A stretch of 64,000 bases of DNA, taken from assembly GCA_945863875.1 (NCBI GenBank), contig CAMBBS010000024.1:1-64000 (forward strand), given 5' to 3'. Below are positions 5,982-60,679 of the stretch, piece after piece. This DNA comes from Desulfopila aestuarii DSM 18488 (GTDB taxonomy: Bacteria; Desulfobacterota; Desulfobulbia; Desulfobulbales; Desulfocapsaceae). Below the pieces are notes generated by a model. It made no database searches and had not been told where the DNA came from. It worked only from the letters and a program-made list of their open reading frames with translations. A program made the position numbers and the translations under genes. The stretch's first letter is position 1. Each line of letters opens with the position of its first letter.

Positions 5982-6622
5982 TGTGCTACGTCCTGCGTCG
6001 AGCGGCTGTGGCGCAGGCCGAGCAGAATGTTTCTACTGTAGACGACCACGCCGAATAACTGACCGACCAAGAGAACCGGGTCTTTTCTGAAGATGGCGTA
6101 GCTGAGCAGCATGATCGAGCCGGTGATGCTGATGATCCAGAAACCGATCGGCAGCATTGATTGTTGCCGTCTTTCGCTGTAGAGCCACTGGTAGATGAAG
6201 CGAAAAGTAAAAACACACTGGCCGACCACGCCCCAGAGCAGAAGCGACGAGGAAATATCCTTGTTGGCAAAAAGTTTGTGGATGTTATAGGTCTCTCCGG
6301 TGAGCAGCCAGCAGATGGCCAGGCCGGGGAAAACAAAAACCAGGATCCGCACCGGGCCCGGGACCTTTTCCCAGAAGCCGAAGTAATAGAGATTGCGGAT
6401 GTACACCCCATAGGTAATAACCTGGCCGAGAATGATGACCAGATCATTGCGCAGGATACCGTAGACCATCAACAGAAAGGAGGCGAGGATGCTCAGCTGC
6501 CAGAAGAGCAGGGGCGAGAGAATCCGTCCCGCCTTTTCCGAGGCAATCCACTGGGTGATCTGCCGTGCCGAAAAAAGAATCTGGGCGAGAAAACCTATTG
6601 AAAAAACGAGGTATTGGTTCAT
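5978..6622 (-). CDS. Lipid-A-disaccharide synthase N-terminal-like (LAB_N) membrane protein
   Basis: 214 aa, two repeats of FxxGFLAQILFSARxxxQWIxSEK / VGQCVFTFRFIYQWLYSERR; 4-bp overlaps with neighbours. Confidence 0.8.
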   Translation of the reverse strand: MNQYLVFSIGFLAQILFSARQITQWIASEKAGRILSPLLFWQLSILASFLLMVYGILRNDLVIILGQVITYGVYIRNLYYFGFWEKVPGPVRILVFVFPGLAICWLLTGETYNIHKLFANKDISSSLLLWGVVGQCVFTFRFIYQWLYSERRQQSMLPIGFWIISITGSIMLLSYAIFRKDPVLLVGQLFGVVVYSRNILLGLRHSRSTQDVAQ

Positions 6623-7350
6623 GTATTCCGGTCCGCTATCTTGTAGCGGATATATCGACTGCGCATCCAGCGAAAGGCCAGGGTGTCAAAAAAAGGCCCA
6701 ACAAGACGGTTGAGGAGATGGTATTTGGCGGTACCGGCATAACGGGGCGAGTGCGTTATGGGAAGCTGCTTGACTTTGCCGCCCTGCAGCTGGACGAGGG
6801 CGGGAAGAAAACGGTGCAGGCCGACGAAAAAAGGCATTTCCCGGGCGTAGGTGAGTTTGATTATTTTCAAGGGACAGCAGGTATCCTTGATGGCATCATT
6901 GATCATCAAGCGCCGGTAGGTATTGGCAATTTTCGAGGATAACCGTTTTATCAAACGGTCCTGTCTTTTTTCGCGGATGCCGTTGACCATGTCATAGTCG
7001 GGAAAATAACTGAAATATGATAAAAAGTCGGCGGGATGGGTCTGCAGGTCGGCATCGATATAGCCGACCAGTGTCGTCGTGCAATGATCAAAGCCGGCCT
7101 TTATGGCGACGCTCAGGCCATAGTTTTTATCGAGGGACAGCACGGTGCAATACGCGGTCTGCTGGCATTTTTCCGTGAGTATTTTCAGGCTATTATCTGA
7201 CGATCCGTCATTGATGAAGAGGACGCGGCTTGGCACGGGGCTGGAGGCGATAAAGGTGTCCATCTCGAGAAAGAATGCCGGAAGGCTCTCTTCTTCATTA
7301 AATACCGGGACGATGATGGTCAGTTCATCACTCATGTGTGACTCATGCAA
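6619..7350 (-). CDS. Family 2 glycosyltransferase (dolichol-phosphate mannosyltransferase/ArnC-like)
   Basis: 243 aa; LTIIVPVFNEEESLPAFF, VLFINDGSSDNSL, VGYIDADLQTHPADF. Confidence 0.9.
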   Translation of the reverse strand: MHESHMSDELTIIVPVFNEEESLPAFFLEMDTFIASSPVPSRVLFINDGSSDNSLKILTEKCQQTAYCTVLSLDKNYGLSVAIKAGFDHCTTTLVGYIDADLQTHPADFLSYFSYFPDYDMVNGIREKRQDRLIKRLSSKIANTYRRLMINDAIKDTCCPLKIIKLTYAREMPFFVGLHRFLPALVQLQGGKVKQLPITHSPRYAGTAKYHLLNRLVGPFFDTLAFRWMRSRYIRYKIADRNT

Positions 7351-7611
7351 TTGGATGTATTCGCCGTTTGCTTTTGGGCGGCCGGGATCTGCTCTGGCAG
7401 GGTTCTACGGGTCTATGCGATAACCGCATATGGTTACCAGACATCGTCATGAAACTCAAGTCAATTTCTTGGCGGTGGTGGGTCCTCTCTCCGGCCCGAG
7501 CCGCACTATCTTGTCGGTATGTCGATTATAGTTTTCCCGCAGGGCTGGAAGTATGCTAATGTTACAAAAGTAAAAAGCCAGTTTAAGAGTACCCTCTTTT
7601 GGAAGGTGTGC

Positions 7612-9279
7612 ATGTACACGTTATTTTATAATTTAAAAACCAAGCCATTTGCCATGAATACCGACCCGTCTTTTGCGTGGATTGGTGAAAAACAGCAGGA
7701 AGCCTTGGCCAGACTGCGTCGCGGAATAGTGGAGACGACAGGTTTTCAGCTTGTAACCGGAGCCGCCGGGACCGGCAAGACAACGCTGCTGCAGGCCCTG
7801 ACGGCACGTCTGGACCGGGATATTGCCTGGGCGGTTATTGACGAGCCGAGCATGGAAAGGATCGATTTTTATAATGCCATTGCCGGAAAGTTTGGTGTGC
7901 AGGAGTCGTTTACTTCAAAGGTGCAGTTTCTTCTGCAATTCCGTCAATTTTTACATCAGGCCGCTGGCGAGAAGAAAAAGGTGCTGTTGCTGCTTGATAA
8001 CTGTCACCTCCTGCCGCAGGAGATGCTCGAAGACCTGCGCCTGCTCGCCAATATTGAAAATGCCGGAGTGAAGCTGATGCAGATATTTTTCTTCGGGCAA
8101 CCCGAATGCAAAGATATGCTCATGCAGCCGAAGAATAGGGCGGTGATGCAGCGTTTGACCCATGTCGCAGAATTGCTGCCCTTGAACGTCACGGAAACCG
8201 GTGACTATATCCGCCACCGGCTGAAAATTGCCGGTACAGAGGAACCATTGTTTACCGCCCAGGCGGTGCAGATGGTGCATCGTTATGCCCAGGGCAATCC
8301 GCGCCGGATCAACGCGCTTTGCGACGAGGCTTTGGCCGCTGGAGCAGTGCAGGGTGTAAAGAGCATTGACGCGAAGAGTATTGCCGCCTGTGCGAACCAG
8401 TTGACACCCGGACCTGTCCGGCGACCGAGCTCCTTTACCGGGGCTGGTCTTACATCGCACCCTTCACACAGCTGGGCCAGGTATGGCCTCGGCCTCTTGG
8501 TTCTTTGCCTGGTTGGCATCGCTTTCTGGTGGCCAAGGGGGGATTCTTTGCAGACTGTGCAGCAGGCTCCGCCGGAGACGGCAAGGACGCCGCAGGTGGT
8601 GGTGCCGCTCGCGGTGCCGCCGGTGGAGGTGCCGAAGTTGCAGGACGTGTCGCCGATCAGCCCCCTGCCTCCGGTGATGACCTATAAGGATGATGTTAGT
8701 GCGACGAAGCCTCCGGAAAAAAGTGAAGTGAAGCCTCCGGAGGCGGCGGTTGCCACGACGCCGATAGGTACCGAGGTGGCGGACCTGCCCCCCGGAGAAA
8801 CAGCCGCCGCAGTCGTCGCCGCCCCGGCAGGGGAACCGCAGGCGCTTGCCGCCCCGGGTGCGGGACAACCGGAGGGAACGCCGGAAACCACGGCGGTGGC
8901 CGGGGCTCCATTGCAGCAAGAGCTGACGACGATGGAGCCGCGTATGATACGCCTGCCGATCCATTCGAATTCCCTTGAACTGACGGCTGCCGCGCGAAAT
9001 GAGCTGGACGGTTTTGTTGAAAAACTACACGATTATCCCCGGGCGAAGCTTGTCGTAAAAGGCTTTGTCTCGGCACAAGAAAATTCCCCGGCGAACACCA
9101 AATTGTCTGAAGACCGGGCGATGCATGTGCAGAAAATTTTACTGGCCAAAGGAATCGACGCCAAGCGCATTGAGGTGGTGGGCATGGGCAACCAAGAGCC
9201 GATCGCCTCGAATACGACCAGCGCAGGGCGAAAGAAAAATCGGCGGGTGGAGGTGCTGGTTATCCATGACGGCATCTGA
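7612..9279 (+). CDS. ExeA/GspA-like AAA ATPase fused via TM and Pro-rich linker to a C-terminal OmpA-like domain
   Basis: Walker A GAAGTGKTTL, Walker B VLLLLDNCHLL; TM YGLGLLVLCLVGIAFWW; C-term RAMHVQKILLAKGIDAKRIEVVGMGNQEPIASNTTSAGRKKNRRVEVLV. Start ATG 7612 preceded by ggaagg. Confidence 0.85.
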   Translation: MYTLFYNLKTKPFAMNTDPSFAWIGEKQQEALARLRRGIVETTGFQLVTGAAGTGKTTLLQALTARLDRDIAWAVIDEPSMERIDFYNAIAGKFGVQESFTSKVQFLLQFRQFLHQAAGEKKKVLLLLDNCHLLPQEMLEDLRLLANIENAGVKLMQIFFFGQPECKDMLMQPKNRAVMQRLTHVAELLPLNVTETGDYIRHRLKIAGTEEPLFTAQAVQMVHRYAQGNPRRINALCDEALAAGAVQGVKSIDAKSIAACANQLTPGPVRRPSSFTGAGLTSHPSHSWARYGLGLLVLCLVGIAFWWPRGDSLQTVQQAPPETARTPQVVVPLAVPPVEVPKLQDVSPISPLPPVMTYKDDVSATKPPEKSEVKPPEAAVATTPIGTEVADLPPGETAAAVVAAPAGEPQALAAPGAGQPEGTPETTAVAGAPLQQELTTMEPRMIRLPIHSNSLELTAAARNELDGFVEKLHDYPRAKLVVKGFVSAQENSPANTKLSEDRAMHVQKILLAKGIDAKRIEVVGMGNQEPIASNTTSAGRKKNRRVEVLVIHDGI

Positions 9280-9303
9280 GCCGGCGGGGGAGGGGCGCGG
9301 CCG

Positions 9304-10431
9304 TCACTTGTTCCGGCGTACCTGCCGTGAGACGGCGACGAGGTTTTCCTCCAGCAGCCGGTAATTGACATCCAGGTCATGGTTGCGGCGGATATGTTCG
9401 CCAGCGGCCGTTGCCAGCGCCTGTCTTTTTTCGGGCCCGTCGATCAGGCACTGGATATGACCGGTGAAGCGGGACGGTTCGGCCGCCGGCGAGAGCAGCC
9501 CGGTCCGGCCGTGCACAACGGCCTCGCCGCCGCCCCAGTCGCCGCAGGCGACCACCGGCAGCCCGCAGGACTGGGCCTCGAGGTAGACCAGGCCAAGCGA
9601 TTCTTCAATGCCGGGAAAGGCGAAAATATCGGCGGCGCTGTAATACCGATACAGCGCGTCGCGGGCTATCTTGCCGGTAAAAACGACCCGGTTGGGCAGA
9701 AGTGCGACGGCCTTTCTTTCAAGGTGCTGCCTGCCGCTGCCGTCCCCGGCTATGATGAGTCGAAGGGACAGGCCGCGCTGGACAAGGTCGCTGCACGCAT
9801 CGATGACCGCTTCGATGCCCCTGGTCTTCACGCCGGACCGCATCATCGCCGCGGTCATGACTATTGTCTCACCACTGATCGCCCATTTCTGGCGTAACCT
9901 CTCTCTCCAGTCCGGGGAAAATTCGAACAAGCGGGGATGAATGCCCGGGGCCGTATAGCTGAGGCGGTCGTCCGGCAACAGCCTCTTCAGGTTGGTCAGG
10001 TCCCTTTTTTTATTGGTGAAAACATGGTCGGCTGTCTGCAGAACCTTCCTGTTGAGGAGAAACCCCGGCAGGGTTTTCAGGTGCTTGCGTCGTTTTGTCG
10101 AGTAGATCCCCTGGAAAATCACATAGGGGATGCCGAGCCTTTTGCTGCACATTGCCCCGAGGAGATCCGGGGCCTTGTAGTAGGAATGATACGTGAGCCA
10201 GAGATCCGGCGGTGCAAGAGCGGTGTCCCGTAAGATGCTGTTTTTCTCACGCAGCAGTCGAAGCAGGGTCAAAGGGTGATAGTAGATCCAGCGGCAGCGG
10301 AGTCTGCTCGCCAGGGCGATGTCGTGCCCCCGGCCGGCCAGATAGCTGTACAGTTCGGTGCCGGTGACCAGATCCCCCGAAGGGTTGGCGTGGTCCAGGG
10401 GCTTAAACGGCATGTAGTAGGCGATCTTCAT
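9304..10431 (-). CDS. Family 4 glycosyltransferase
   Basis: MKIAYYMPFKPLDHANPSGDLVTGTELYSYL...; C-term FAFPGIEESLGLVYLEAQSCGLPVVA. Confidence 0.85.
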   Translation of the reverse strand: MKIAYYMPFKPLDHANPSGDLVTGTELYSYLAGRGHDIALASRLRCRWIYYHPLTLLRLLREKNSILRDTALAPPDLWLTYHSYYKAPDLLGAMCSKRLGIPYVIFQGIYSTKRRKHLKTLPGFLLNRKVLQTADHVFTNKKRDLTNLKRLLPDDRLSYTAPGIHPRLFEFSPDWRERLRQKWAISGETIVMTAAMMRSGVKTRGIEAVIDACSDLVQRGLSLRLIIAGDGSGRQHLERKAVALLPNRVVFTGKIARDALYRYYSAADIFAFPGIEESLGLVYLEAQSCGLPVVACGDWGGGEAVVHGRTGLLSPAAEPSRFTGHIQCLIDGPEKRQALATAAGEHIRRNHDLDVNYRLLEENLVAVSRQVRRNK

Positions 10432-10623
10432 AACTTTTTCGTCAGGTTGCCGGCTGAGCAGGCTGGCCACCTTTTGCCGAGGGGTGAAACAGGTTGAAAA
10501 ACATGTTGTATTGGTGCAGAAAACCAAATATTCTGAGATATTGCATTGATTTTCTGCGGCTGTTGATCGGCTGAAGTCGTCTCACCATGACCGCACCTGT
10601 AACATTTCCCCGGGAGGGTTGCC

Positions 10624-11805
10624 ATGCCGCAGACGGTTCGGCTCGACGTTTTAATTTATGCCCATGATGGCCGCGGTCTCGGCCACGCCGGCCGCAGTAT
10701 CGGCATCGGCATGGCCCTGCGTCGACTCTACCCCGACCTGAAGGTTCTTTTTGTCTCGGGCTGCAGTCTTGCCCAGGAGTTGATCGGTGCGGCGCCTCTC
10801 GACTGGCTGAAACTGCCCTCCTACGAAACCAGGGTAATCGAGGGAAAATCAATCGGCATCCATGGCAAATCAATGTTTTCCGATGGGGAGCTCGGCCAAT
10901 TCCGGGCACGGGAGCTGGCCCAGCTGGTCTCCCTGTACCGGCCGAGACTGGTGCTGGTTGATCATACCCCGCAGGGCAAGCACAGGGAGCTCGTCGCGGC
11001 TCTTTCTGCCGGGAGTGGCGGCGATACCCGGTGGATCCTCGGCGTGCGCGGCGTGGTCGGGGCGGTGCTCCAGGCCCGCTCCGGGCTGGCCCGGGAGCTG
11101 TTCAGGGCGCATTACCATGGCCTGCTCTGGTACGGCGATGCGCTGGTGCTCGGCGCATCGCACTGCGAGCAGCTGCGCCTGCACTATGACACGGAGCCGG
11201 TGGAGTGCGGCTATGTCCTGCGGCTGGCCGAGCTCGCCCGGTGGGAGGGACGTGTTCCGGGGCCGGAAGAGCCGGTGGCGGGGGCTATCTCCATTCCCTG
11301 GCTTGGCGAAAACTCCCTCGACTTCCTGGTGCTTCTGGCCGGGGTGTTGCAGAAAATACCCGAATCCTATGGCCGCTGGTGGCTTTTTGTCAATATAGAC
11401 CCCTCCACGGCGGCCGGGCAAAGGCTCGGGGCGCTCTTTGCCTCAATGCATAACTGCCGGCTGGAGCCTCCGGGACGAACCTATGCCGCCGTCCTGCTGC
11501 AGGCCAGGACCGCACTCATCTATGGCGGCTATAATAGCCTTATGGACGTGCTGCATGCCGGGATTCCGGCCGTGGTTGTGCTTCGTGACATGCAGGACGA
11601 AGAGCAGCAGCTTCATCTGCACAAGCTGCAGGAGGTTGCCGGCGAGGCGCTTGCGACGGTTTCTGAAACCGGGGTTACCGCCGAGGGGCTTGAGAGGCTG
11701 TTGCTGGCCAACCTGCAGCGGGGCGCACTGCCCTCGGTCGTTCTCAACACCGACGGCGCCGCGTGTGCGGCAAAGTATCTGCATGGCCTGCTTTCCTGGG
11801 GGTAA
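10624..11805 (+). CDS. Family 28-like glycosyltransferase
   Basis: 393 aa; YAHDGRGLGHAGRSIGIGMALRRLYPDLKVLFVSG N-term; ALIYGGYNSLMDVLHAGIPAVVVLR C-term. Confidence 0.7.
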   Translation: MPQTVRLDVLIYAHDGRGLGHAGRSIGIGMALRRLYPDLKVLFVSGCSLAQELIGAAPLDWLKLPSYETRVIEGKSIGIHGKSMFSDGELGQFRARELAQLVSLYRPRLVLVDHTPQGKHRELVAALSAGSGGDTRWILGVRGVVGAVLQARSGLARELFRAHYHGLLWYGDALVLGASHCEQLRLHYDTEPVECGYVLRLAELARWEGRVPGPEEPVAGAISIPWLGENSLDFLVLLAGVLQKIPESYGRWWLFVNIDPSTAAGQRLGALFASMHNCRLEPPGRTYAAVLLQARTALIYGGYNSLMDVLHAGIPAVVVLRDMQDEEQQLHLHKLQEVAGEALATVSETGVTAEGLERLLLANLQRGALPSVVLNTDGAACAAKYLHGLLSWG

Positions 11806-11818
11806 CCTTCCGCCCGCC

Positions 11819-11853
11819 GTCATTCCGGGCTTGATGCGGAATCCATGTTTTTA
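11819..11853 (+). terminator. Hairpin terminator after the GT28-like gene
   Basis: attccg-ggcttgatg-cggaat followed by ccatgttttt. Confidence 0.45.
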
Positions 11854-12243
11854 AGGGTTGCGAAAGGCGCCGTCATCCACCTTGGCAAGGAACACTTTTG
11901 TGCATATCAACACGTTTCTCGAGGTATCGCCCGCCTGGATACGCAGCAGTCCCTCCCGGATGATGATTTTTTTCAGCAGCTCCCGGCCGTTTGACTGATT
12001 GTAGTAGATATCCGAGTCGAGAATGTCCTTGATGTTTTCCGGCTCGACCTTGTCGATGATCAGCTGGATACCAAGGTTGAGGAACGAATCCTTGATCTGC
12101 AGAAGTTCGTTTTCCAGGCCGAGGATGCCCTGCTTGGAGACGAGTTCCGACAATTTTTTCAATTGCAGAACGAGGGGCACCAGGGATTCCTGGTCTTCAA
12201 GGCTGCACGATGCCTTTGCGGCAAGGGCTAAGTCGCGTATCAT
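11851..12243 (-). CDS. Hypothetical protein
   Basis: 130 aa, ORF only. Confidence 0.5.
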   Translation of the reverse strand: MIRDLALAAKASCSLEDQESLVPLVLQLKKLSELVSKQGILGLENELLQIKDSFLNLGIQLIIDKVEPENIKDILDSDIYYNQSNGRELLKKIIIREGLLRIQAGDTSRNVLICTKVFLAKVDDGAFRNP

Positions 12244-12566
12244 AATTGTCCTTTGTTGGTCTCTGGTTAACGGTCCTTGTTCGGCGGCTTTTTTGCGGGA
12301 GGCCGGCCTATCTTACCCGTTTTTGTCTGAACAGGAAAGCCGGCTTTTTACGGGTTCGGCAATCTTTCTCCGTCACTGCCTTCCTTTCTTTTTATCACTT
12401 CCCCCATCTGGCCCAGACCTCTTTTTCGAAAAAAGTTACAAAACTGTAATAAATAAAAACTCAATACTGCAAAAATGAAATAAAAATACCAGCCAATTCC
12501 GGGTGTAGGTCTCGATTGCTTGTGCAACATCTTGATAAAATAGGTGATATTTAGTTTCCAGCCATC

Positions 12567-12582
12567 TGGCATAAGTCTTGTA
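12567..12582 (+). promoter_or_regulatory. Candidate sigma-54 -24/-12 promoter upstream of the ammonium transporter gene
   Basis: TGGCAT-aagtc-TTGTA with correct GG-GT spacing; -12 element deviates (GT instead of GC). Confidence 0.4.
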
Positions 12583-12681
12583 ATACGTGAAGGCAGGTAC
12601 CGAAGTGGAGTGAAGACGATGTTGTTACATTGATGCTCTGTATTGAACGAAGAGGGATGTATAAATTAAAGGAGGAGTAAA

Positions 12682-14019
12682 GTGAACGAAAAAATGAAGT
12701 ATCGAAAGTATTGGGGTCTGGCTGTTTTTCTGGCAGCAACGGCCGTGGCCGTACCGGCCTTGGCTGAGGAAGCAAATTTAAAAGATACCGTGGTGCAGCT
12801 GGCCTATTCGGTTGATACCTTTTACTTCCTCATGACCGGTGCCCTGGTCATGTGGATGGCCGCCGGTTTTACCATGCTCGAAGCCGGTCTGGTGCGCAGT
12901 AAAAACACCGTGGAGATTTTAACGAAAAACGTTGCGCTCTATGCAATCGCCTGCATCACGTATATGCTGGTCGGTTATAACATAATGTACGGTGACAGCA
13001 TCAACACCATTATTCCCGGACTCAGCTTCCTGCTCGGGGCGGACCATACCGTCGAGGAAGTCCTGAAAAGTAATGGAGAAATCTACTATTCGTCCCTTGC
13101 CGATTTCTTTTTCCAGGTGGTCTTTGTTGCGACGGCCATGTCAATTGTCTCCGGTGCCGTTGCCGAACGGATGAAGCTCTGGGCATTCCTGGCCTTTGCC
13201 GTGGTCATGACCGGCTTTATTTATCCGGTCCAGGGCTTCTGGAAATGGGGCGGTGGTTTTCTTGACGCCCTCGGCTTTTTGGACTTTGCCGGTTCCGGAG
13301 TTGTCCATTTATGCGGTGCTTCTGCAGCCATAGCCGGTGTCCTTCTGCTTGGCGCACGAAAGGGAAAATATGTCGGTGGCAGGATTAAGGCCATTCCCGG
13401 GGCCAACCTGCCGATAGCCACCCTGGGCACCCTGATTCTCTGGCTGGGATGGTTCGGTTTTAATGGCGGCTCGGAGCTGAAAATAAGTGATGTGACCGAG
13501 GCCAACGCGGTTGCCATGGTCTTTGTCAATACCAATACCGCCGCGGCCGGTGGCCTGGTCGCCGCTCTCATGCTGTCCAGGGCCTGGTTCGGCAAGGCCG
13601 ATCTGACGATGGCCCTGAACGGGGCGCTGGCCGGTCTGGTGGCGATTACCGCCGAACCCCTGACGCCGACACCTCTGGTGGCGACTCTGGTCGGCGCTAT
13701 CGGCGGCCTGCTCGTCGTCACGGCGATCATCTGTATCGACAAGGCGAAAATTGACGATCCGGTCGGGGCTATTTCCGTCCATGGGGTCTGCGGCATCTGG
13801 GGTCTGCTGGCCGCCGCCTTCACCAATCCGGAAGGATCGCTCATCGCGCAGCTGACAGGGATCGTGGTGATCTTCGCCTGGGTTTTCGGCACAAGCCTTG
13901 TCACCTGGTTCATTATCAAGGCCGTTATGGGGATTCGGGTCAGTGAAGAAGAAGAGATGGAAGGCGTCGATGTTGCGGAATGCGGTCTGGCTGCATATCC
14001 TGAGTTTACTAAAGAATAG
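12682..14019 (+). CDS. amt: Ammonium transporter (Amt family)
   Basis: 445 aa; signal-like N-term, VSGAVAERMKLWAF, HLCGASAAIAGVLLLGARKGKY, ISVHGVCGIWG. Confidence 0.97.
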   Translation: MNEKMKYRKYWGLAVFLAATAVAVPALAEEANLKDTVVQLAYSVDTFYFLMTGALVMWMAAGFTMLEAGLVRSKNTVEILTKNVALYAIACITYMLVGYNIMYGDSINTIIPGLSFLLGADHTVEEVLKSNGEIYYSSLADFFFQVVFVATAMSIVSGAVAERMKLWAFLAFAVVMTGFIYPVQGFWKWGGGFLDALGFLDFAGSGVVHLCGASAAIAGVLLLGARKGKYVGGRIKAIPGANLPIATLGTLILWLGWFGFNGGSELKISDVTEANAVAMVFVNTNTAAAGGLVAALMLSRAWFGKADLTMALNGALAGLVAITAEPLTPTPLVATLVGAIGGLLVVTAIICIDKAKIDDPVGAISVHGVCGIWGLLAAAFTNPEGSLIAQLTGIVVIFAWVFGTSLVTWFIIKAVMGIRVSEEEEMEGVDVAECGLAAYPEFTKE

Positions 14020-14373
<354 letters not shown>

Positions 14374-14457
14374 CACCGTACAGGCTGTTTTCCGTTGACC
14401 CGGGCCGGTCTGCCCTGAACTCAGCCATGACAAGGTCAGGCGGTTAAGCGTCATCTG

Positions 14458-14510
14458 AAGGAGCCTTCCTCCTGCGACAAAGTCGCAGAAGGAAGGCTCC
14501 TTTTTTTTGT
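14458..14510 (+). terminator. Rho-independent terminator
   Basis: aaggagccttcctcctgcgac aaa gtcgcagaaggaaggctcctttttttt, long stem plus T-run. Confidence 0.95.
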
Positions 14511-14621
14511 TGTAATCTTCCGCTGTTAATGATAATTATTCTTGACAGCCGGTCCTGCTTTTGGATATATGTGAAGATCTTGCAGGCCATCCGTGACAAG
14601 AAGTGCATTCTCGTGTTTTTT

Positions 14622-14695
14622 GTTGTTTAGTGCCTTACAGAATAGTATCTTTTTTTGGCCGGAAAATATTCTGCGAAAGGCACTAACCCCGGCGT
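14622..14695 (+). repeat. Palindromic repeat element, copy 1
   Basis: TTAGTGCCTT-a-CAGAATA ... TATTCTG-cga-AAGGCACTAA imperfect inverted repeat; related to 45298-45360 and 54357-54376. Confidence 0.55.
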
Positions 14696-14784
14696 ATTTT
14701 CCGTTTACCGCGGTTGGTCGAGGTATCCAAAAGCTCTTGATAAAACGAACGAGGCAGGGGTTGCCGGAGTTGCTGAGGAATACT

Positions 14785-15012
14785 ATGGTATTGCCTACTT
14801 TTTTGAAAGTATATCGATTTTATCTGGACGGCTTTAAAAGAATGACCGTCGGCAGAACTTTATGGAAGATTATTTTCATAAAGCTGCTTGTCATGTTTGC
14901 CGTTTTGAAGCTGTTCTTTTTTCCAAATTTCTTGCAGACAAACTTTTCGACCGATGAACAAAGGGCCGATCATGTCATCCAGCAGTTGACCGGATCGGAA
15001 CAAAATAAATAA
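14785..15012 (+). CDS. DUF4492-like small membrane protein preceding cydA
   Basis: FLKVYRFYLDGFKRMTVGRTLWKIIFIKLLVMFAVLKLFFFPNFL; start at ATG 14785 rather than the ORF-track start. Confidence 0.75.
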   Translation: MVLPTFLKVYRFYLDGFKRMTVGRTLWKIIFIKLLVMFAVLKLFFFPNFLQTNFSTDEQRADHVIQQLTGSEQNK

Positions 15013-24767: not shown

Positions 24768-25472
24768 TTATTGCAGTACGAACTGCACCGGCACCAGTAC
24801 CTCCATCGGTGCGGCAATATTGTTTGTTTTCCCGGGAAGAAAGTGCCAGTCTTTCACTGTCTGCAAGGCGGTTTTATCAAGCAGGTCGTGGCCGCTGCTG
24901 GTATGAATTGCCAGTCGCCCGGGGGAGCCATCCGCTAAGACGGTGACCGCGAGAATGACCACACCCTGCCAGCCGCGCCGCCGGGCTAGAGCTGGATAGG
25001 ATGGTTTTGGGTTCTGGTCATAGAGTGGTCTGGCCTGAATTATCGACGGTGATGGGCCTGACCTTGGCTGGAACCTTTTGTTGGTCGTTGCCCGGGCTGC
25101 CGGCGAAACTGCTGCGGGACTGGCCGGAGCCTTGGCGGCGACAGGGCTGGGGGCGGGCGGGGCGGTTGCATGACGGGCCTTGACTCTTTTTTTGCTCTCT
25201 GATCGAAGCAGTTCCGGAGCCTTGGTGTTCTTCGGGATCGGCCGTACCGGTTCGGCGACAGGGACAGCACGGGCAGGGGTGATTGGCGCCGGTGTGACCA
25301 TTTGCGGTGGACTGCTTTTTTTCGCTACGGCACTGGCCTGGCGCAGATTGACAGTGATCGGTAGCTTGTCGGCAGGCTGGACAATCGGAGGCTTTTCCTG
25401 CGGCCATGGCAGCACACCGAGCAGCAGATGAAGAGAAAGTGCCAGGAAAAAGGCAGGGAACAACCGCGACAT
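24768..25472 (-). CDS. tonB: TonB-family energy transducer
   Basis: N-term TM, Pro/Ala-rich spacer, C-term YPALARRRGWQGVVILAVTVLADGSPGRLAIHTSSGHDLLDKTALQTVKDWHFLPG. Confidence 0.93.
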   Translation of the reverse strand: MSRLFPAFFLALSLHLLLGVLPWPQEKPPIVQPADKLPITVNLRQASAVAKKSSPPQMVTPAPITPARAVPVAEPVRPIPKNTKAPELLRSESKKRVKARHATAPPAPSPVAAKAPASPAAVSPAARATTNKRFQPRSGPSPSIIQARPLYDQNPKPSYPALARRRGWQGVVILAVTVLADGSPGRLAIHTSSGHDLLDKTALQTVKDWHFLPGKTNNIAAPMEVLVPVQFVLQ

Positions 25473-25478
25473 AACTCC

Positions 25479-25916
25479 TTACTCCGGGTTTGCCTGCAGG
25501 GAAATCTTTGTCATCCCGGCTCGTTGCAACTCGTCAAGCACCTGAAAAAGCTGCTGATAGGAAACATTTTCTTCGGCAAAGACGAGAATTTCTCCGGCAG
25601 ACCCACCTTGTTCAGCCGTTCCCGGTAAATGTTCATGCAGCTCGGCCAGGGGAACCGGCGTTTTATTGAGGAAAATCTCCAGCTCTTGTTCCGGGCCCAG
25701 CGCCGATGCCGTCTGCGATGTGCGAAGAGAAAGAGTAAGCACCGTCTCCTCGGTCTTGGTCGCCTGGGAGGATTCCGGCAGGTCAAGCTGCATGCCCTGA
25801 TGCACCGTCATGGACAGCATCGCGTAAATAAAAAAGACCAGGAGGAGGAAGACGATATCGATCAGCGGCAGCATCTCGATTCGGGCAGGCCGGGTGTTAT
25901 ATCGCGTGATTTTCAT
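25479..25916 (-). CDS. exbD: ExbD/TolR biopolymer transport protein
   Basis: EMLPLIDIVFLLLVFFIYAMLSM. Confidence 0.92.
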   Translation of the reverse strand: MKITRYNTRPARIEMLPLIDIVFLLLVFFIYAMLSMTVHQGMQLDLPESSQATKTEETVLTLSLRTSQTASALGPEQELEIFLNKTPVPLAELHEHLPGTAEQGGSAGEILVFAEENVSYQQLFQVLDELQRAGMTKISLQANPE

Positions 25917-26541
25917 TGGCGTTCTTTTCGTTTATCTTCGCGGTCTTGTTGAAGACGACTTCCAGGCTGGTGGCGTATTTCTCCATGACATGCATGGCCC
26001 TGGTGATTCGGGTATTGAAATAGTTATAGGGAATGACGGCGACAATGGCGATTCCCAGCCCGGCGGCGGTGGTGATCAGGGCCTGGGCGATGCCCGAGGT
26101 AACCAGTTTTGGATCGGCAATCGAGGCGGCGCCAAGCATTTCAAAGGAGCTGATAATACCCAAAACCGTGCCAAAGATGCCAAGTAAGGGCGCCACGGTG
26201 ATCATCGTGTCGAGCACCGGCATGAAGCGCTGCATATTCTGCACGCTGAGATTGGCCTCCGCCTCCATTGCCCGGCCCATATCATAGTCCCGGTGCAGAA
26301 TGCCGACGATCAGCAATCGAATGACGTGATCTCTGCATCCGGCTGTCTTGGTCCTGATTATCTCCCATTCACTCTCTTCGGCCAGGGTGAGGATTTCATC
26401 CATCAACGGCCGGTTTCGCCGGCGTTGAAGGGTAAACCAGAACATCATCCTTTCCAGAATAACGGTGAGGACGATGAGGGAACAGGCGAGCAGCGGCCAG
26501 ATGATCGGCCCGCCGCTCTGTAAAATTTTATACACCATCAT
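25897..26541 (-). CDS. exbB: ExbB/TolQ/MotA proton channel protein
   Basis: TVAPLLGIFGTVLGIISSFEML, GIAQALITTAAGLGIAIVAVIPYNYF. Confidence 0.93.
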   Translation of the reverse strand: MMVYKILQSGGPIIWPLLACSLIVLTVILERMMFWFTLQRRRNRPLMDEILTLAEESEWEIIRTKTAGCRDHVIRLLIVGILHRDYDMGRAMEAEANLSVQNMQRFMPVLDTMITVAPLLGIFGTVLGIISSFEMLGAASIADPKLVTSGIAQALITTAAGLGIAIVAVIPYNYFNTRITRAMHVMEKYATSLEVVFNKTAKINEKNANENHAI

Positions 26542-29351
26542 TGTCTTGCTCGCTGGTTAAGTTCTGGATGGATAAGGCGGGAGATGATCGCCAGGGCCTC
26601 GGCAAAGGTGGCCGGTGAGGGACTGCAGACCAGGTCCGGATCAATGATATGCACCCGGCCATCGCGCACCGCCTTGATGACCGGGATGTTCCGCCATCGT
26701 TCTTGCTCCTTCCCGGCAAGACCGGTCTCATTGCCCATGATGGCGATGATGATGGTATCGGGATTCTCGGCGAGCACTTTTTCATCATTGGTTGTGCCGG
26801 ACAGTTGATCATCGATGATATTCGCACCGCCACCCAGCACGATAAAGTCATCGGTGAAGGTGTGTTGCAAGGCGCCGACCAGCGGCTGGCTGCCGATCTG
26901 CAGAAAGACCTTTTCAATGGGCAGACCCGCTACTTCCCTGGTGACAGCTGCCACTTTCGCCCGGGCCTCGCTGACTATCGTGTGCGCCCTTTGTTCGAGA
27001 CCGAGCAGCCGACCCAGGGTGATGAACTGGGTACAGATGTCGTCAAAGGAGGTTGCCTGATGAAACTGGACAACGTTAAGGCCGAGGCTGCGCAGCTTCT
27101 CCAGCTGCTGCGGCGGGGAGAGATCCGTCGCCAGCACCAGGTCCGGCTGCAGACTGAGGATCTTCTCAATGGATATCTGCATGACCGAACCTATTTTTTC
27201 CTTCATCTTCGCCGCTTCCGGACGAATACAGTAGCTGGTATTGGCCAACAGCCGATCTTCCGCCCCCAGGAGATAGACATTCTCCGTGTTAGTCGGACCG
27301 AGGGAGATGATTCGCTCGGGAGGTTTGCCGGCGGTGGGCGCCGGTTGTGCCGCGCTCAGGACAACCGTCAGAGCTTTACGGATGACCAGCGGCAGCTCCT
27401 TGGCGGCGGAGTCGGGCAATGCCGCCAGGGCCGCCACAGCTGGCAAAGCTGCCATTGTCGCCGGGTGGCTGCCCGGCAGCATCGACCTGCACCAGTCATC
27501 AAAACTTGTCAGATCGCTGACCAGGCCCCGTTCATAATCGTCACTTATCGCCAGCGCCGCCGAGAGAAAAGAACTGTAGCGCGGCTGCAGCAGGAGGTGT
27601 TCGACGTCGGATCGCAGCTGCGGGTCCCCTTGACAGAGTGGGGAGAGTTCAATTTTCCTTTCTTTTAAGCGCTTGAAAAGAGAGCGGTTGGTGGCCAGGC
27701 CATTCTGCCGGGCTATGGCCTCCTGCACCCCCTCATAGACGGCGCGGCCGATGAGCTCGCCCATCTTGGTATGGCCGCCGGTCGCATCGATTGCCGGACC
27801 CCTCCCTTCCACGACGATGATATTGTCGGTGCCGGTGCCGGTGGCGGAATGGTGTGGCGAGGTGTAGCTGGAACGGATATCCAGATCCTGCAGGGCGGCC
27901 GATTTTGCCTCGGTACTGCTGATTATCGCCCGGGTCATGGCCCTGGGTGAGAGTTGCATATTGGTTAAAAGGAGGATGTTGATGGTCCCCGGTTTGTCGC
28001 TTTTTTTAATTTCGTCCGGCTCGTAGTAGCTGCCGGTGTCGCTGCCCATGCGGACGCTGTTGCCCTCCACCCCGGCGGTGACCAGGGCGACCACCTCCAT
28101 GTCCCGGAAGGACTTTTTCACCACCGCCAGGTTAGCCATATCCGCGCCGGTAAAGAGCATTGCCGTCGAATCTGGTGGAAAACCAAGTATTTTACTGGTC
28201 GACATTCGCAGCTCGGCTAATCCCTGGCCCCGATCAAGGCCCCAGGATGGAGGTGGAAAATAGTGATTGGCGACGGTGAGGATGCCCTCTTTCTGACCTT
28301 CCAGAGTGGAGACCACCCGCATCGGCTGCTGGAAGGAAAGTGCCAGGGTTTTGTTGTGAAAATCCTTTATGCTGCTGGTGATGATTTCCGCCTGCCGCAG
28401 GTAGTCAAGGTCGAGGTGCAGCGGTTGTTTGTCGACGACCTCCTCGTCCAGGACATAATTGTCACTGTTGCTGAACGAATCGCTATAGATACCCGAGGCC
28501 AGTGCGGAGACCAAGGTCCCGCTCTGACCGGCCAGCCGGCAGGTAAGCTCGCAGGGAAAAAAGAGCACACGGTTATCCCGCACCGCATCAACATCGCGCC
28601 AGCCCTCCTGTTGCAAAGCGGCTAAGGCTTGGTCAGGACTGCCGCAGCCGTAAATGACCTGCGGGTTGAATTGTTGCCACTGGGCGAGCGTGACCGGCGT
28701 ACTATCGCCGTTTGCGCCAAACTGCGGGGCTATACCGCCCGCCGCACGGATGTACTCATTCTGGAACGAGTCGTCTCCCGGGACCATGAACGGCTCGTCG
28801 CCCATCAGACGGATGACGCGTTGCCGCTCTGCTGCAGGGATCTTCGCCACCTTCAGGGCGATGACCTCCAGCTGTCGTTGCTGTTCGGCGATGATCGCAG
28901 CGCTTTTGGCTTCCCTGTTAAAGATGCGGCCAAGAAGTCGAATCTGCGCGAAACTTTCGGCAATGGTGCGGGGCGTGAGGCGAATAAGAATGGCTTTATC
29001 CTGGAAACGGGCGATCTGCTCCCCGTGCAGATCGGCATAAAAAATCACCTCCGGCTGCAGCCCCGCCACCCGGTCGAGATCAGGACGGAAAAAACCGCCG
29101 ATGATCTCCTTGCCCGCCGTTTCCGGGCCAAGCAAAGAGTGATGGGTGATGCCGACCACGGCATCGGCTGCGCCTAAACCCAGGACTATTTCCGTGATCG
29201 ACGGCACGAGCGAGACTACCCGGCGGGGGGCGGTGTCGAGGGTGATTCTCTCCCCCGCCGAATCGGTAAAGGTAACTGGCCATTGCCCCGATAACAGCTC
29301 GACCGGCTGCAGGAACAACAAGAATATGAAGAAAAAAGGAAGTCGTTTCAT
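26538..29351 (-). CDS. Exported fusion: BtuF-like B12-binding domain + CbiZ adenosylcobinamide amidohydrolase + second BtuF-like domain
   Basis: 937 aa; signal peptide MKRLPFFFIFLLFLQPVELLSG; RRVVSLVPSITEIVLGLGAADAVVGITHHS; CbiZ core FTGADMANLAVV...VTAGVEGN...GTINILLLTNMQLSPRAMTRAIISSTEAK..ATGTGTDNIIVV; then ERIISLGPTNTENVYLLGAEDRLLANTSYCI. Confidence 0.88.
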   Translation of the reverse strand: MKRLPFFFIFLLFLQPVELLSGQWPVTFTDSAGERITLDTAPRRVVSLVPSITEIVLGLGAADAVVGITHHSLLGPETAGKEIIGGFFRPDLDRVAGLQPEVIFYADLHGEQIARFQDKAILIRLTPRTIAESFAQIRLLGRIFNREAKSAAIIAEQQRQLEVIALKVAKIPAAERQRVIRLMGDEPFMVPGDDSFQNEYIRAAGGIAPQFGANGDSTPVTLAQWQQFNPQVIYGCGSPDQALAALQQEGWRDVDAVRDNRVLFFPCELTCRLAGQSGTLVSALASGIYSDSFSNSDNYVLDEEVVDKQPLHLDLDYLRQAEIITSSIKDFHNKTLALSFQQPMRVVSTLEGQKEGILTVANHYFPPPSWGLDRGQGLAELRMSTSKILGFPPDSTAMLFTGADMANLAVVKKSFRDMEVVALVTAGVEGNSVRMGSDTGSYYEPDEIKKSDKPGTINILLLTNMQLSPRAMTRAIISSTEAKSAALQDLDIRSSYTSPHHSATGTGTDNIIVVEGRGPAIDATGGHTKMGELIGRAVYEGVQEAIARQNGLATNRSLFKRLKERKIELSPLCQGDPQLRSDVEHLLLQPRYSSFLSAALAISDDYERGLVSDLTSFDDWCRSMLPGSHPATMAALPAVAALAALPDSAAKELPLVIRKALTVVLSAAQPAPTAGKPPERIISLGPTNTENVYLLGAEDRLLANTSYCIRPEAAKMKEKIGSVMQISIEKILSLQPDLVLATDLSPPQQLEKLRSLGLNVVQFHQATSFDDICTQFITLGRLLGLEQRAHTIVSEARAKVAAVTREVAGLPIEKVFLQIGSQPLVGALQHTFTDDFIVLGGGANIIDDQLSGTTNDEKVLAENPDTIIIAIMGNETGLAGKEQERWRNIPVIKAVRDGRVHIIDPDLVCSPSPATFAEALAIISRLIHPELNQRARQ

Positions 29352-29369: not shown

Positions 29370-31352
29370 CTAATAATCCCAGCGCAGGTTGACATAGAAG
29401 CCGCGGCCGGGCATCGGGTAGCCTTTGACATAGGCATAGTCTTCATCAAAAAGATTGGTTATTTCGCCCCGGACCGTAAACGTCCCGTAATTCGCCGTTT
29501 CCAGAAAACGGTAGGCGGCGGTGAGGTCGGCGACGGTGACACTCTCCAGTTTGTCGACCGGTGCCGGGTAGCTGCCGGACTCCCAGTCCTGCACATCCTG
29601 GCTGCCGGTATAGGTGACGTTCAGGCGGCAGAAAGTGCCTGCCCCGTTGCTGGTGACGATTCCGCCGGCAAGGGTCGTGTCGCTGATATACTGCAGATCG
29701 TCGCCGGTTTCTTCGTCCTCGTATTTTGTCAAGTAGGTCAGATTGATATAGGGCCGCAATTCCCAGTCCCAGGCCAGAGGGACGCCGAGATCATAACTCA
29801 GTTCGCTTTCGAAGCCGGAGATGGTCGCTTCACCGATATTCTGCCAGCTTTGTGCGCCGTCGGCGAGGTAGTCGGTGGTGATTTTGTCTTTGAAGTCGGT
29901 CGAGAACCAGGTCAGTGCGCTGTTCAGGCCGTTATGGCTGAAATCAAGACCGCCTTCGCAGGTGGTGCTTTTTTCGGCATCGAGATCAGGGTTGCCCACC
30001 ACCCTTGAGCCGAAACTGGTAAAATCGGCGGCCAGCTGATCGGCTGACGGCATCATAAAGCCCTCGGCATACTGCGCCCTGAGCTTTACTCCCTCCAGGA
30101 CCGTCCAGGCCAGGCCGATCTTCGGTGTGAGCCTGTTCTGGTCCTCATCCCTGCCGGCCGGTTCGCTGACCTGAACATGGTACCAGTCATAGCGCAGGCC
30201 GACATTGGCTGCCAGCTGGTCCTCGAGGAAGGTGATTTTGCCGAGCAGAAAGACAGCCGGGTTGGTATAACTGGTTTCTCTTGGTGTCCAGCTGTTTTCC
30301 ACCCCGTAGTCCAGCCAGTCGAAGCCGCCGGTGAGGGTTGAACTGCCGAATGTACCGGTCAACTGGGCCTGGGCGCCCTGCTGGTCGGTGGTGTTCGATG
30401 AGAGCAGGCCGCTGTCCCATCCGGTGGGATCGGACGCAGTCGGGTCCAGCCAGCTGTTCTCATCCTGGCCGAAAAAATAGCGGGTCATCCACTGATATGT
30501 GCCGCTGGTGGATCCTCCGGTATAGTTCGTGTCGACCGAGTAGTTTTCCTTGTTGGTGCTATCGTCAAGATCAGCGGTGCTGAAATAGTCGGGATTGCCG
30601 GCCTCGTCCGTCTTAAAGCTGGTGACGATAATGCCTATGCGGTGGTGGTTGGAAAATGAGTAGCCGGTATTCGCGCTTATGCCGGTTTCATAATCTATGC
30701 CGGTATTGTCGTATCGTTGGCCGCTGCCGGTATCGTAGTCGTCCCTCGTGCCATAGGTGGAAGAACCGGCAAAGTCAAAACCCTTCTCCTTGATCGTGCC
30801 GCCGATACTGCCTTCAGCCGCCCCATAAGAGCCGATACCGGTTTCGGCAAAGGCGGAATTATTCTGCCCCTGCCGGGTGATGATGTTGACCACGCCGCCC
30901 ATACCCGCCGAGCCGTATTGTACCGCACCCGGACCACGGATAATTTCCAGCCGCTCGACGTTTTTGGTGAGCAGCTTGGCAACATTGCCGGTCCCTGCTC
31001 GACGACCGTCGAGGAGGATGAGCACATGACCCTGCAGGTCGTTGCCGTGCGTGTCGCTGCGAAAACCCCGGATGCCGACGGAGGTGAGATTACCGGGGTA
31101 TTTCTGGACATGACCGAGACCTTTTTCGGCGAGCAGGTCGCCGACGTTGCGGCTGGTCGATTGCTGCAGCTCCTCCTGGTCGATGACGGTGATATGGCTG
31201 CTGACAATTTTTATGCTCTCCGGGGAGCGGCCGGCGGTGACAACGATTGTCTCCATCAGGTCAGGCGGCGGCATGCTTTCTGCGGCGAGGCCTCCTCCAG
31301 CGAGGGTTCCGGCGAGCAGCTGGCAGAATAGAACGGGGTACGACATTTTCAT
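29370..31352 (-). CDS. btuB: TonB-dependent outer-membrane receptor (BtuB-like)
   Basis: Signal peptide MKMSYPVLFCQLLAGTLAGGGLAAES; plug domain RNVGDLLAEKGLGHVQKYPGNLTSVGIRGFRSDTHGNDLQGHVLILLDGRRAG; terminal LFDEDYAYVKGYPMPGRGFYVNLRWDY; downstream of a cobalamin riboswitch. Confidence 0.9.
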   Translation of the reverse strand: MKMSYPVLFCQLLAGTLAGGGLAAESMPPPDLMETIVVTAGRSPESIKIVSSHITVIDQEELQQSTSRNVGDLLAEKGLGHVQKYPGNLTSVGIRGFRSDTHGNDLQGHVLILLDGRRAGTGNVAKLLTKNVERLEIIRGPGAVQYGSAGMGGVVNIITRQGQNNSAFAETGIGSYGAAEGSIGGTIKEKGFDFAGSSTYGTRDDYDTGSGQRYDNTGIDYETGISANTGYSFSNHHRIGIIVTSFKTDEAGNPDYFSTADLDDSTNKENYSVDTNYTGGSTSGTYQWMTRYFFGQDENSWLDPTASDPTGWDSGLLSSNTTDQQGAQAQLTGTFGSSTLTGGFDWLDYGVENSWTPRETSYTNPAVFLLGKITFLEDQLAANVGLRYDWYHVQVSEPAGRDEDQNRLTPKIGLAWTVLEGVKLRAQYAEGFMMPSADQLAADFTSFGSRVVGNPDLDAEKSTTCEGGLDFSHNGLNSALTWFSTDFKDKITTDYLADGAQSWQNIGEATISGFESELSYDLGVPLAWDWELRPYINLTYLTKYEDEETGDDLQYISDTTLAGGIVTSNGAGTFCRLNVTYTGSQDVQDWESGSYPAPVDKLESVTVADLTAAYRFLETANYGTFTVRGEITNLFDEDYAYVKGYPMPGRGFYVNLRWDY

Positions 31353-31403: not shown

Positions 31404-31443
31404 AAAAAAAATCCCCGGACCAATTAAAAAATTGATCCGGGGA
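31404..31443 (-). terminator. Intrinsic terminator between riboswitch and receptor gene (probable expression platform)
   Basis: Minus strand ccccggatcaattttttaattggtccggggaTTTTTTTT. Confidence 0.85.
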
Positions 31444-31529
31444 TGCCCTTGTTTCTCCACAGATTGCCTATAGAGATCTCTTGTCCACGGAGATGTCCAG
31501 GCTGGCATAACAATCACAGTCAAGCCGAT

Positions 31530-52195: not shown

Positions 52196-52332
52196 AGGGC
52201 AAACAGGAGAGACGGCACAATGCACTGCGCAGTAGAGAGGAGAGACATTCGGGCCATCAGGACATCTTCGCAGGCAGTGCCGCCTTAGCGGCGTTGGCTG
52301 GTATCAATTCTATCACGATCCGTGGGAATGAA

Positions 52333-52697
52333 AAAAGGAGCGGGTTATAAGCCGAATTCTGTACCCCGATAAAGAGGCCATGATCATTTCACTGGGATGT
52401 TGATCGCTCAACACCTCTTGCAACCTACCCGGAGATCTCGGACGGGCCGCCCTCAAACATCTCCCTATTTGGTCTTGCTCTGGGTGGGGTTTGCCGTGCC
52501 TTCCATGTCACCATGGAAGCGGTGAGCTCTTACCTCGCCGTTTCACCCTTACCTGATCGTATCAGGCGGTCTGTTTTCTGTGGCACTTTCCCCCGGTCAC
52601 CCGGCGTTCGCGTTACGAACCACCCTGCCCTGTAGAGTTCGGACTTTCCTCTCCGGTCACAAGACCGGAGCGATCATGCGCCCGCTCCTTTGCAGCT
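52333..52697 (-). ncRNA. rnpB: RNase P RNA
   Basis: Minus strand: GAGGAAAGTCCGAACTC, ACAGGGCAGGGTGGTTCGTAACG, AGGGTGAAACGGCGAGGTAAGAGCTCACCG, ACAGAATTCGGCTTATAACCCGCTCC then T-run. Confidence 0.96.
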
Positions 52698-60313: not shown

Positions 60314-60679
60314 GGGGGCGAAACGGATTCGACGGGGATGTGAAAGCTCATCGTTGCATGCCGAGCTTCTATTTGCTCGTAAAACCGATAGAACATAAAT
60401 ATAATCGCAGACGATTATAACTACGCAGTAGCAGCTTAATACCTGTCATACTGCCGTCCCACCAGTCTTCGCCCGTAAGGCTGGATTTGGGGCGTCGACT
60501 CAACGGGCTGGTCGCCTGAAGGTTGCCTGTCTTTCAGGGGACGAGATCTCACAGACTAGTTCCAGGAAATCTATGTTCCGACTGAGTTCCCGGCACGAAA
60601 CCTAAAGTACGGAACTAAGCATGTAGATACGGGAGGGGAGCATTTTCGGACGCGGGTTCGACTCCCGCCGCCTCCACCA
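60314..60679 (+). ncRNA. ssrA: tmRNA
   Basis: GGGGGCGAAACGGATTCGACGGGG 5' end, tag ORF reading GCA GAC GAT TAT AAC TAC GCA GTA GCA GCT TAA (ADDYNYAVAA), 3' GGTTCGACTCCCGCCGCCTCCACCA. Confidence 0.97.

Follow-up and report, generated by a model that had tools for sequence, protein, structure and literature searches.

A predicted periplasmic BtuF-CbiZ-BtuF protein in a cobalamin-riboswitch operon of Desulfopila aestuarii, and the exported BtuF-CbiZ clade to which it belongs

How a cell that cleaves cobamides spares its own cofactor is an open question, which has been raised for the enzyme CbiR (PMC7733943). CbiZ is the canonical remodelling enzyme, and the CbiZ of Rhodobacter sphaeroides cleaves pseudocobalamin but not cobalamin (PMC7733943). 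The question takes a particular form at one locus of the window, by which we mean the whole stretch of 64,000 nucleotides analysed here (Desulfopila aestuarii DSM 18488, contig CAMBBS010000024.1, positions 1 to 64,000): in which compartment does a CbiZ domain act when it is placed between two BtuF-like substrate-binding domains behind an apparent signal peptide, and what could it do there?

The gene lies on the minus strand at 26538..29351 and encodes 937 amino acids (aa). An initial annotation, which gave no strand, had claimed an open frame of this length with a CbiZ domain between two Peripla_BP_2 domains, and both claims are borne out: the frame has no internal stop, and the Pfam search returns the domains in the proposed order. 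The predicted signal peptide occupies about aa 1-24 (29280..29351) and is followed by the first substrate-binding domain, BtuF1, at about aa 26-290 (28482..29276), by the CbiZ domain at aa 340-542 (27726..28334), by a C-terminal tail and Ala/Pro-rich linker at aa 543-674 (27330..27725), a region where a stop codon and a fresh signal peptide occur in relatives, and by the second substrate-binding domain, BtuF2, at aa 675-937 (26541..27329), all on the minus strand. PF01955 covers the CbiZ domain with its full profile at 184.9 bits against a cut-off of 27 (E 2.1e-54), in the central part of the protein where the annotation had expected it, and the two CbiZ motifs that it quoted are present and sit in the most conserved regions of the domain. 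Peripla_BP_2 (PF01497) matches two stretches, with 161.7 bits against a cut-off of 27.5, the better one at aa 681-906 (E 2.5e-47), and the BtuF equivalog model NF002894 scores 127 bits, under its curated cut-off of 234. When PDB sequences are searched with phmmer, BtuF2 groups with BtuF and with heme and siderophore substrate-binding proteins (SBPs), BtuF1 (aa 37-267) matches more distant SBPs of the same kinds, and the CbiZ part matches no chain at E values up to 1. AlphaFold2, run on the full protein with two relatives, gave a pLDDT of 35 and a pTM of 0.24. At the level of sequence the tri-domain architecture is well supported, and the domains, signal peptide, motifs, riboswitch and adjacent corrinoid-uptake genes are no chance matches.

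In the N-terminus, MKRLPFFFIFLLFLQPVELLSG followed by QW, the n-region is charged and is followed by an h-region and a c-region; relatives have cleavage-like sites (AWA before G, LKA before E) at the matching place. A signal-peptide rule of our own making, which demands a charged start, an h-region and a small-X-small motif, picks out, among proteins with an upstream Met, 44 of 48 of the exported type and 0 of 18 standalone CbiZs. It picks out no ABC-ATPase control and 17 of 20 separate SBPs, one of which has no upstream Met. At least two of the four exported-type proteins that are negative (L093 and L096) score just below the threshold. In five loci of family f56 (L101, L104, L106, L108 and L109) a lipobox (ISGC, ISAC or LGSC) immediately precedes the mature SBP, and these BtuF-CbiZ proteins are probably membrane-anchored lipoproteins. 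A periplasmic location of the CbiZ domain is well supported by the signal peptides found across the clade, the lipoboxes, the separately secreted partner SBP and operons that contain a TonB-dependent receptor and sometimes BtuCD.

The operon, read along the minus strand, consists of a cobalamin riboswitch, a terminator, a TonB-dependent receptor gene, the tri-domain gene, and the genes of ExbB, ExbD and TonB. The riboswitch aptamer (RF00174; 31518..31707) scores 115.5 bits, where the gathering score is 31.5, and between it and the receptor gene a putative intrinsic terminator, found by pattern match only, has a 15-pair stem followed by T7 (31411..31444). For the receptor (29370..31352; PF00593, PF07715), the ATG at 31352 is the likely start rather than the listed TTG at 31523, since the TTG falls inside the aptamer and the ATG lies 3' of the terminator; its best NCBIfam scores are those of heme and B12 receptor models, under their cut-offs. 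The stop of the tri-domain gene overlaps the start of ExbB (25897..26541; PF01618), after which come ExbD (25479..25916; PF02472) and TonB (24768..25472; PF03544). The riboswitch and its neighbouring genes are those of corrinoid uptake, and B12 regulation of the tri-domain gene is supported.

The same context recurs in the related loci. A cobalamin riboswitch is found in all 17 of those scanned, and a census was made of 36 loci flanked by 3 kb or more on either side, a set to which the window belongs. A TonB receptor gene lies upstream on the same strand in 29 of them and an ExbB, ExbD or TonB gene occurs in 20; a second SBP, either downstream or fused, is found in 14, and BtuC lies downstream in 8. 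Two loci (L088 and L105) hold a full import chain in one row with BtuF1-CbiZ as the periplasmic piece. Two others have a tandem pair of cobalamin riboswitches upstream of the receptor gene (L087, 13394-13956; L095, 13741-14239), and L105 contains, at 6248-15012, two divergent back-to-back operons, both of which have a cobalamin riboswitch, a TonB receptor and an exported CbiZ of their own.

How common is the arrangement? Within the window's genus, family and order, 15 of 97 genomes (host included) have CbiZ, as do 82 of 396 genomes sampled from the phylum. The phylum sample yields 90 matches, 54 of them in open frames of at least 600 aa, and a BtuF-like domain precedes CbiZ in every frame of that length that was fetched. 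The usual form is a gene of about 680 aa (gene A: signal peptide, BtuF1, CbiZ), which in part of the loci is followed by a separate SBP gene with its own signal peptide (gene B); in L046 the two overlap by 4 bp. A tree of 72 CbiZ domains contains a branch (support 100/99) with all 53 SBP-linked domains on one side, and the branch that leads to this exported clade is long. The initial annotation had proposed cleavage between two binding lobes before import; export is well supported, but the placing between two lobes is to be corrected, as BtuF-CbiZ usually goes with a second BtuF that is secreted as a protein of its own. What is new lies mainly in the exported BtuF-CbiZ clade and less in the tri-domain chain, its rare fused form.

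Genes A and B form one chain in two genomes, that of the window and that of a congener (G014, locus L045, where Pfam confirms the architecture); in the whole order, 263 genomes, no other frame exceeds 900 aa. At both joints the tail of gene A runs through an Ala/Pro-rich linker into mature B, and the signal peptide of B is absent, as is expected if the product remains in one compartment. In a tree of the BtuF1-CbiZ part the window groups with the two-gene locus L046 (support 100/99), and a single origin of the two fusions is rejected (AU p 0.012); on BtuF2, whose tree is weakly resolved, the window and L045 as one clade are not rejected (p 0.197). Two independent origins of the fusion are therefore likely. 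Frames of 930, 975 and 1047 aa in three further genomes (G367, G424 and G474) were rejected as tri-domain fusions, as BtuF1-CbiZ alone was detected in them.

The two BtuF domains look functionally unequal. When E. coli BtuF docks on BtuC, two glutamates form salt bridges with arginines, and equivalent salt bridges are required for docking in other class III SBPs (PMC3741162). With Glu72 and Glu202 of E. coli BtuF as reference (the sequence used agrees with PDB 1n2z along all 245 residues), both glutamates are kept in 10 of 10 BtuF2 domains and 11 of 12 canonical BtuFs, as against 7 of 53 CbiZ-linked BtuF1 domains (Fisher test, 7e-12, on the undeduplicated set and ignoring relatedness). In the window the positions are D93 and A223 in BtuF1 versus E729 and E857 in BtuF2. 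The picture of cleavage between two lobes is thus to be corrected on this point too, besides the three-in-one chain having been seen in two genomes: the docking glutamates are reliably kept only in the second SBP. We infer that BtuF1 is the substrate-holding domain for CbiZ and BtuF2 the deliverer to BtuCD. Each domain also has conserved cysteines, which are not common residues in the canonical set: C236, C267 and C271 of BtuF1, each in 51 of 53, and C708, C773 and C909 of BtuF2, in 10 of 10. C271 and C909 share one alignment column, beside the position of E. coli BtuF Arg246; the cysteine coordinates are 28539-28644 and 26625-26627 on the minus strand. These residues could form disulfides or serve as cobalt ligands.

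The CbiZ core is conserved: the 53 exported and 19 standalone domains have 26 positions in common, the TGTGTD and GxH motifs among them. We know of no structure-based catalytic residues for CbiZ, and "intact" therefore means conserved; in this sense the core is supported as intact, and activity is predicted. To our knowledge CbiZ requires no nucleotide cofactor, so it could work in the periplasm. One position sets the exported clade apart, 526, which is Gly in 53 of 53 exported CbiZs and Lys in 19 of 19 standalones of the phylum. The CbiZ of Dehalococcoides mccartyi, the best plasmid-borne match (36% identity), has Gly here too. In one locus, L047 (8219-10564), an insertion of about 60 aa separates the two halves of the CbiZ match.

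The host could use the product of such an enzyme. Its assembly (4.69 Mb, 93 contigs) has five cobalamin riboswitches and a single CbiZ, that of the tri-domain gene. BtuC, BtuD and BtuF adjoin cbiA, cbiC, cbiD, cbiET and cbiG, and the genome also has CbiB with a CobD-CobQ fusion, CobS, CobT, CobU and CobC; imported cobyric acid could therefore be rebuilt into a cobamide. CbiB is present in 54 of 56 genomes with exported CbiZ and in 15 of 17 without CbiZ, so that this co-occurrence does not discriminate.

The most likely reading, which we consider probable, is that the tri-domain protein belongs to a B12 uptake system as a subunit that processes corrinoids in the periplasm, with amidohydrolysis coupled to uptake. 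When internal cobamide is low, the riboswitch would permit expression of the operon, and the TonB-dependent receptor, drawing its energy from the ExbB, ExbD and TonB that the operon also encodes, would bring corrinoids into the periplasm. BtuF1 would bind them and present them to the attached CbiZ domain, which would hydrolyse the amide that carries the aminopropanol/nucleotide loop and so release cobyric acid. BtuF2, tethered to the enzyme by the fusion, would take the cobyric acid, or an uncleaved corrinoid, and dock on BtuCD for import, after which cytoplasmic CbiB, CobU, CobS and CobT would rebuild the cell's own cobamide. Export, operon, CbiZ core, unequal docking residues, and the BtuCD and late-pathway genes of the same genome are supported by sequence; catalysis, substrate, the roles of the binding domains and the order of hand-over are what the processing model would add. 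Several facts count against it. The host is able to make cobamides de novo; most operons, the window's included, have no adjoining BtuCD, which is encoded elsewhere in the genome; and Gly replaces Lys at 526. Corrinoid adenosylation, moreover, is cytoplasmic, and the characterised CbiZs were assayed on adenosylated corrinoids (PMC7733943).

That the two-part BtuF-CbiZ is widespread in the phylum suggests that foreign forms of B12 are cut in the periplasm before import. More specifically, though this we put forward tentatively and with rather more doubt than belief, the clade may remodel foreign corrinoids outside the inner membrane, with a non-docking BtuF1, possibly by Cys-cobalt ligation, feeding CbiZ and with BtuF2 handing cobyric acid instead of a complete cobamide to BtuCD. 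If so, remodelling would precede import and stay separate from the cofactor pool of the cytoplasm, which the enzyme could destroy if it were located there, a periplasmic enzyme tied to a binding protein would solve the own-cofactor problem by compartment, and the corrinoid that the inner-membrane transporter must carry would be a different one.

Alternatively, the protein may perform periplasmic salvage of cobinamide only, a scavenging in which complete cobamides are left uncut and lower ligands are not remodelled. CbiZ is named for cobinamide, and the R. sphaeroides enzyme spares cobalamin (PMC7733943), yet bacterial CbiZ cleaves pseudocobalamin (PMC7733943, PMC3541065) and the sequence does not reveal the substrate, so that we regard this as a possible but rather unlikely restriction. 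The consistent Gly at 526 and the long branch of the exported clade would also suit a CbiZ domain that is no longer an enzyme and serves as an extra corrinoid-binding module to concentrate ligand in the periplasm. This is improbable, as conservation of the 26 positions across exported and standalone domains would be unusual for a dead domain, and the Dehalococcoides CbiZ has the same Gly.

Two further alternatives concern the gene product itself. If the N-terminus were an inverted membrane anchor, as the annotation had considered, the enzyme would face the cytoplasm and be coupled to import from the inside, where fusions of CbiZ to a BtuD-type ATPase do exist (Cytobacillus) and in line with a suggested coupling of CbiZ to uptake (PMC7733943). 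The positive charge before the h-region, the SBP domain directly after the signal, the lipoboxes in five homologues and the separate secretion of the partner SBP make this very unlikely. An assembly or sequencing error, by which the window would really hold two genes, would accord with the separate genes of most relatives and the 4-bp overlap in L046; it is scarcely credible, since a second genome (G014) has the same type of joint, and replacement of the signal peptide of B by an Ala/Pro-rich linker in both is not explained by one base error.

Compared with the adenosylcobinamide amidohydrolase CbiZ (PF01955) of R. sphaeroides and Methanosarcina, the tri-domain and BtuF-CbiZ proteins have the same domain, core motifs and salvage context, often beside B12 transporter genes, but are exported, carry an N-terminal BtuF-like domain and form their own clade, in which Gly replaces the Lys of the phylum's standalone CbiZs. 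Like BtuF, the class III B12-binding protein of BtuCDF, their BtuF domains belong to the PF01497 fold family, and BtuF2 keeps both docking glutamates as canonical BtuF does; BtuF1 mostly lacks them and has its three conserved cysteines, and both domains are tied to an enzyme. CbiS and CbiR, too, are salvage or remodelling enzymes that open the nucleotide loop of corrinoids. CbiS has a CbiZ domain but pairs it with an alpha-ribazole phosphatase, and the tri-domain protein stays far under the cut-off of the CbiS model NF038002 (71.9 bits against 250, over the CbiZ part only); CbiR has an unrelated sequence and a different target bond (PMC7733943). The ABC-ATPase-CbiZ fusion of Cytobacillus spongiae (WP_233812020) likewise ties CbiZ physically to a corrinoid ABC importer, but there the partner is a cytoplasmic ATPase and the enzyme is on the opposite side of the membrane. 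This plasmid-encoded mirror image (L147, 1915-3384) has altered TGTxTD and GxH motifs.

CbiZ genes adjoin transporter genes in Chlorobium (PMC8620254) and Dehalobacter (PMC4285132). The literature examined and the titles and abstracts searched, whose coverage did not extend to Gray and colleagues 2008/2009, so that an earlier mention is possible, contained no description of a CbiZ that is exported or fused to BtuF. In this phylum the arrangement is common. A name taken from the domain, such as adenosylcobinamide amidohydrolase, would conceal it, since one readily thinks of salvage in the cytoplasm. A search of genome contigs with the full protein matched only Desulfobulbaceae bacterium BRH_c16a (64% identity in the best segment); among plasmids the same query matched SBPs, none of the records reaching 80% coverage of it, and three matches examined from a plasmid search with CbiZ alone were two standalone CbiZs and one ATPase-CbiZ fusion.

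Nine genomes (G560, G504, G505, G519, G520, G527, G363, G474 and G388) have two CbiZ matches each, the first of the standalone type, in a frame of about 400-450 aa, and the second of the exported type, in a frame that measures about 680 aa or more; such genomes would let the two compartments be compared in one organism. Elsewhere in the window there are an RNase P RNA of class A (52332-52689, minus strand) and a tmRNA with the tag ADDYNYAVAA (60314-60679, plus strand).
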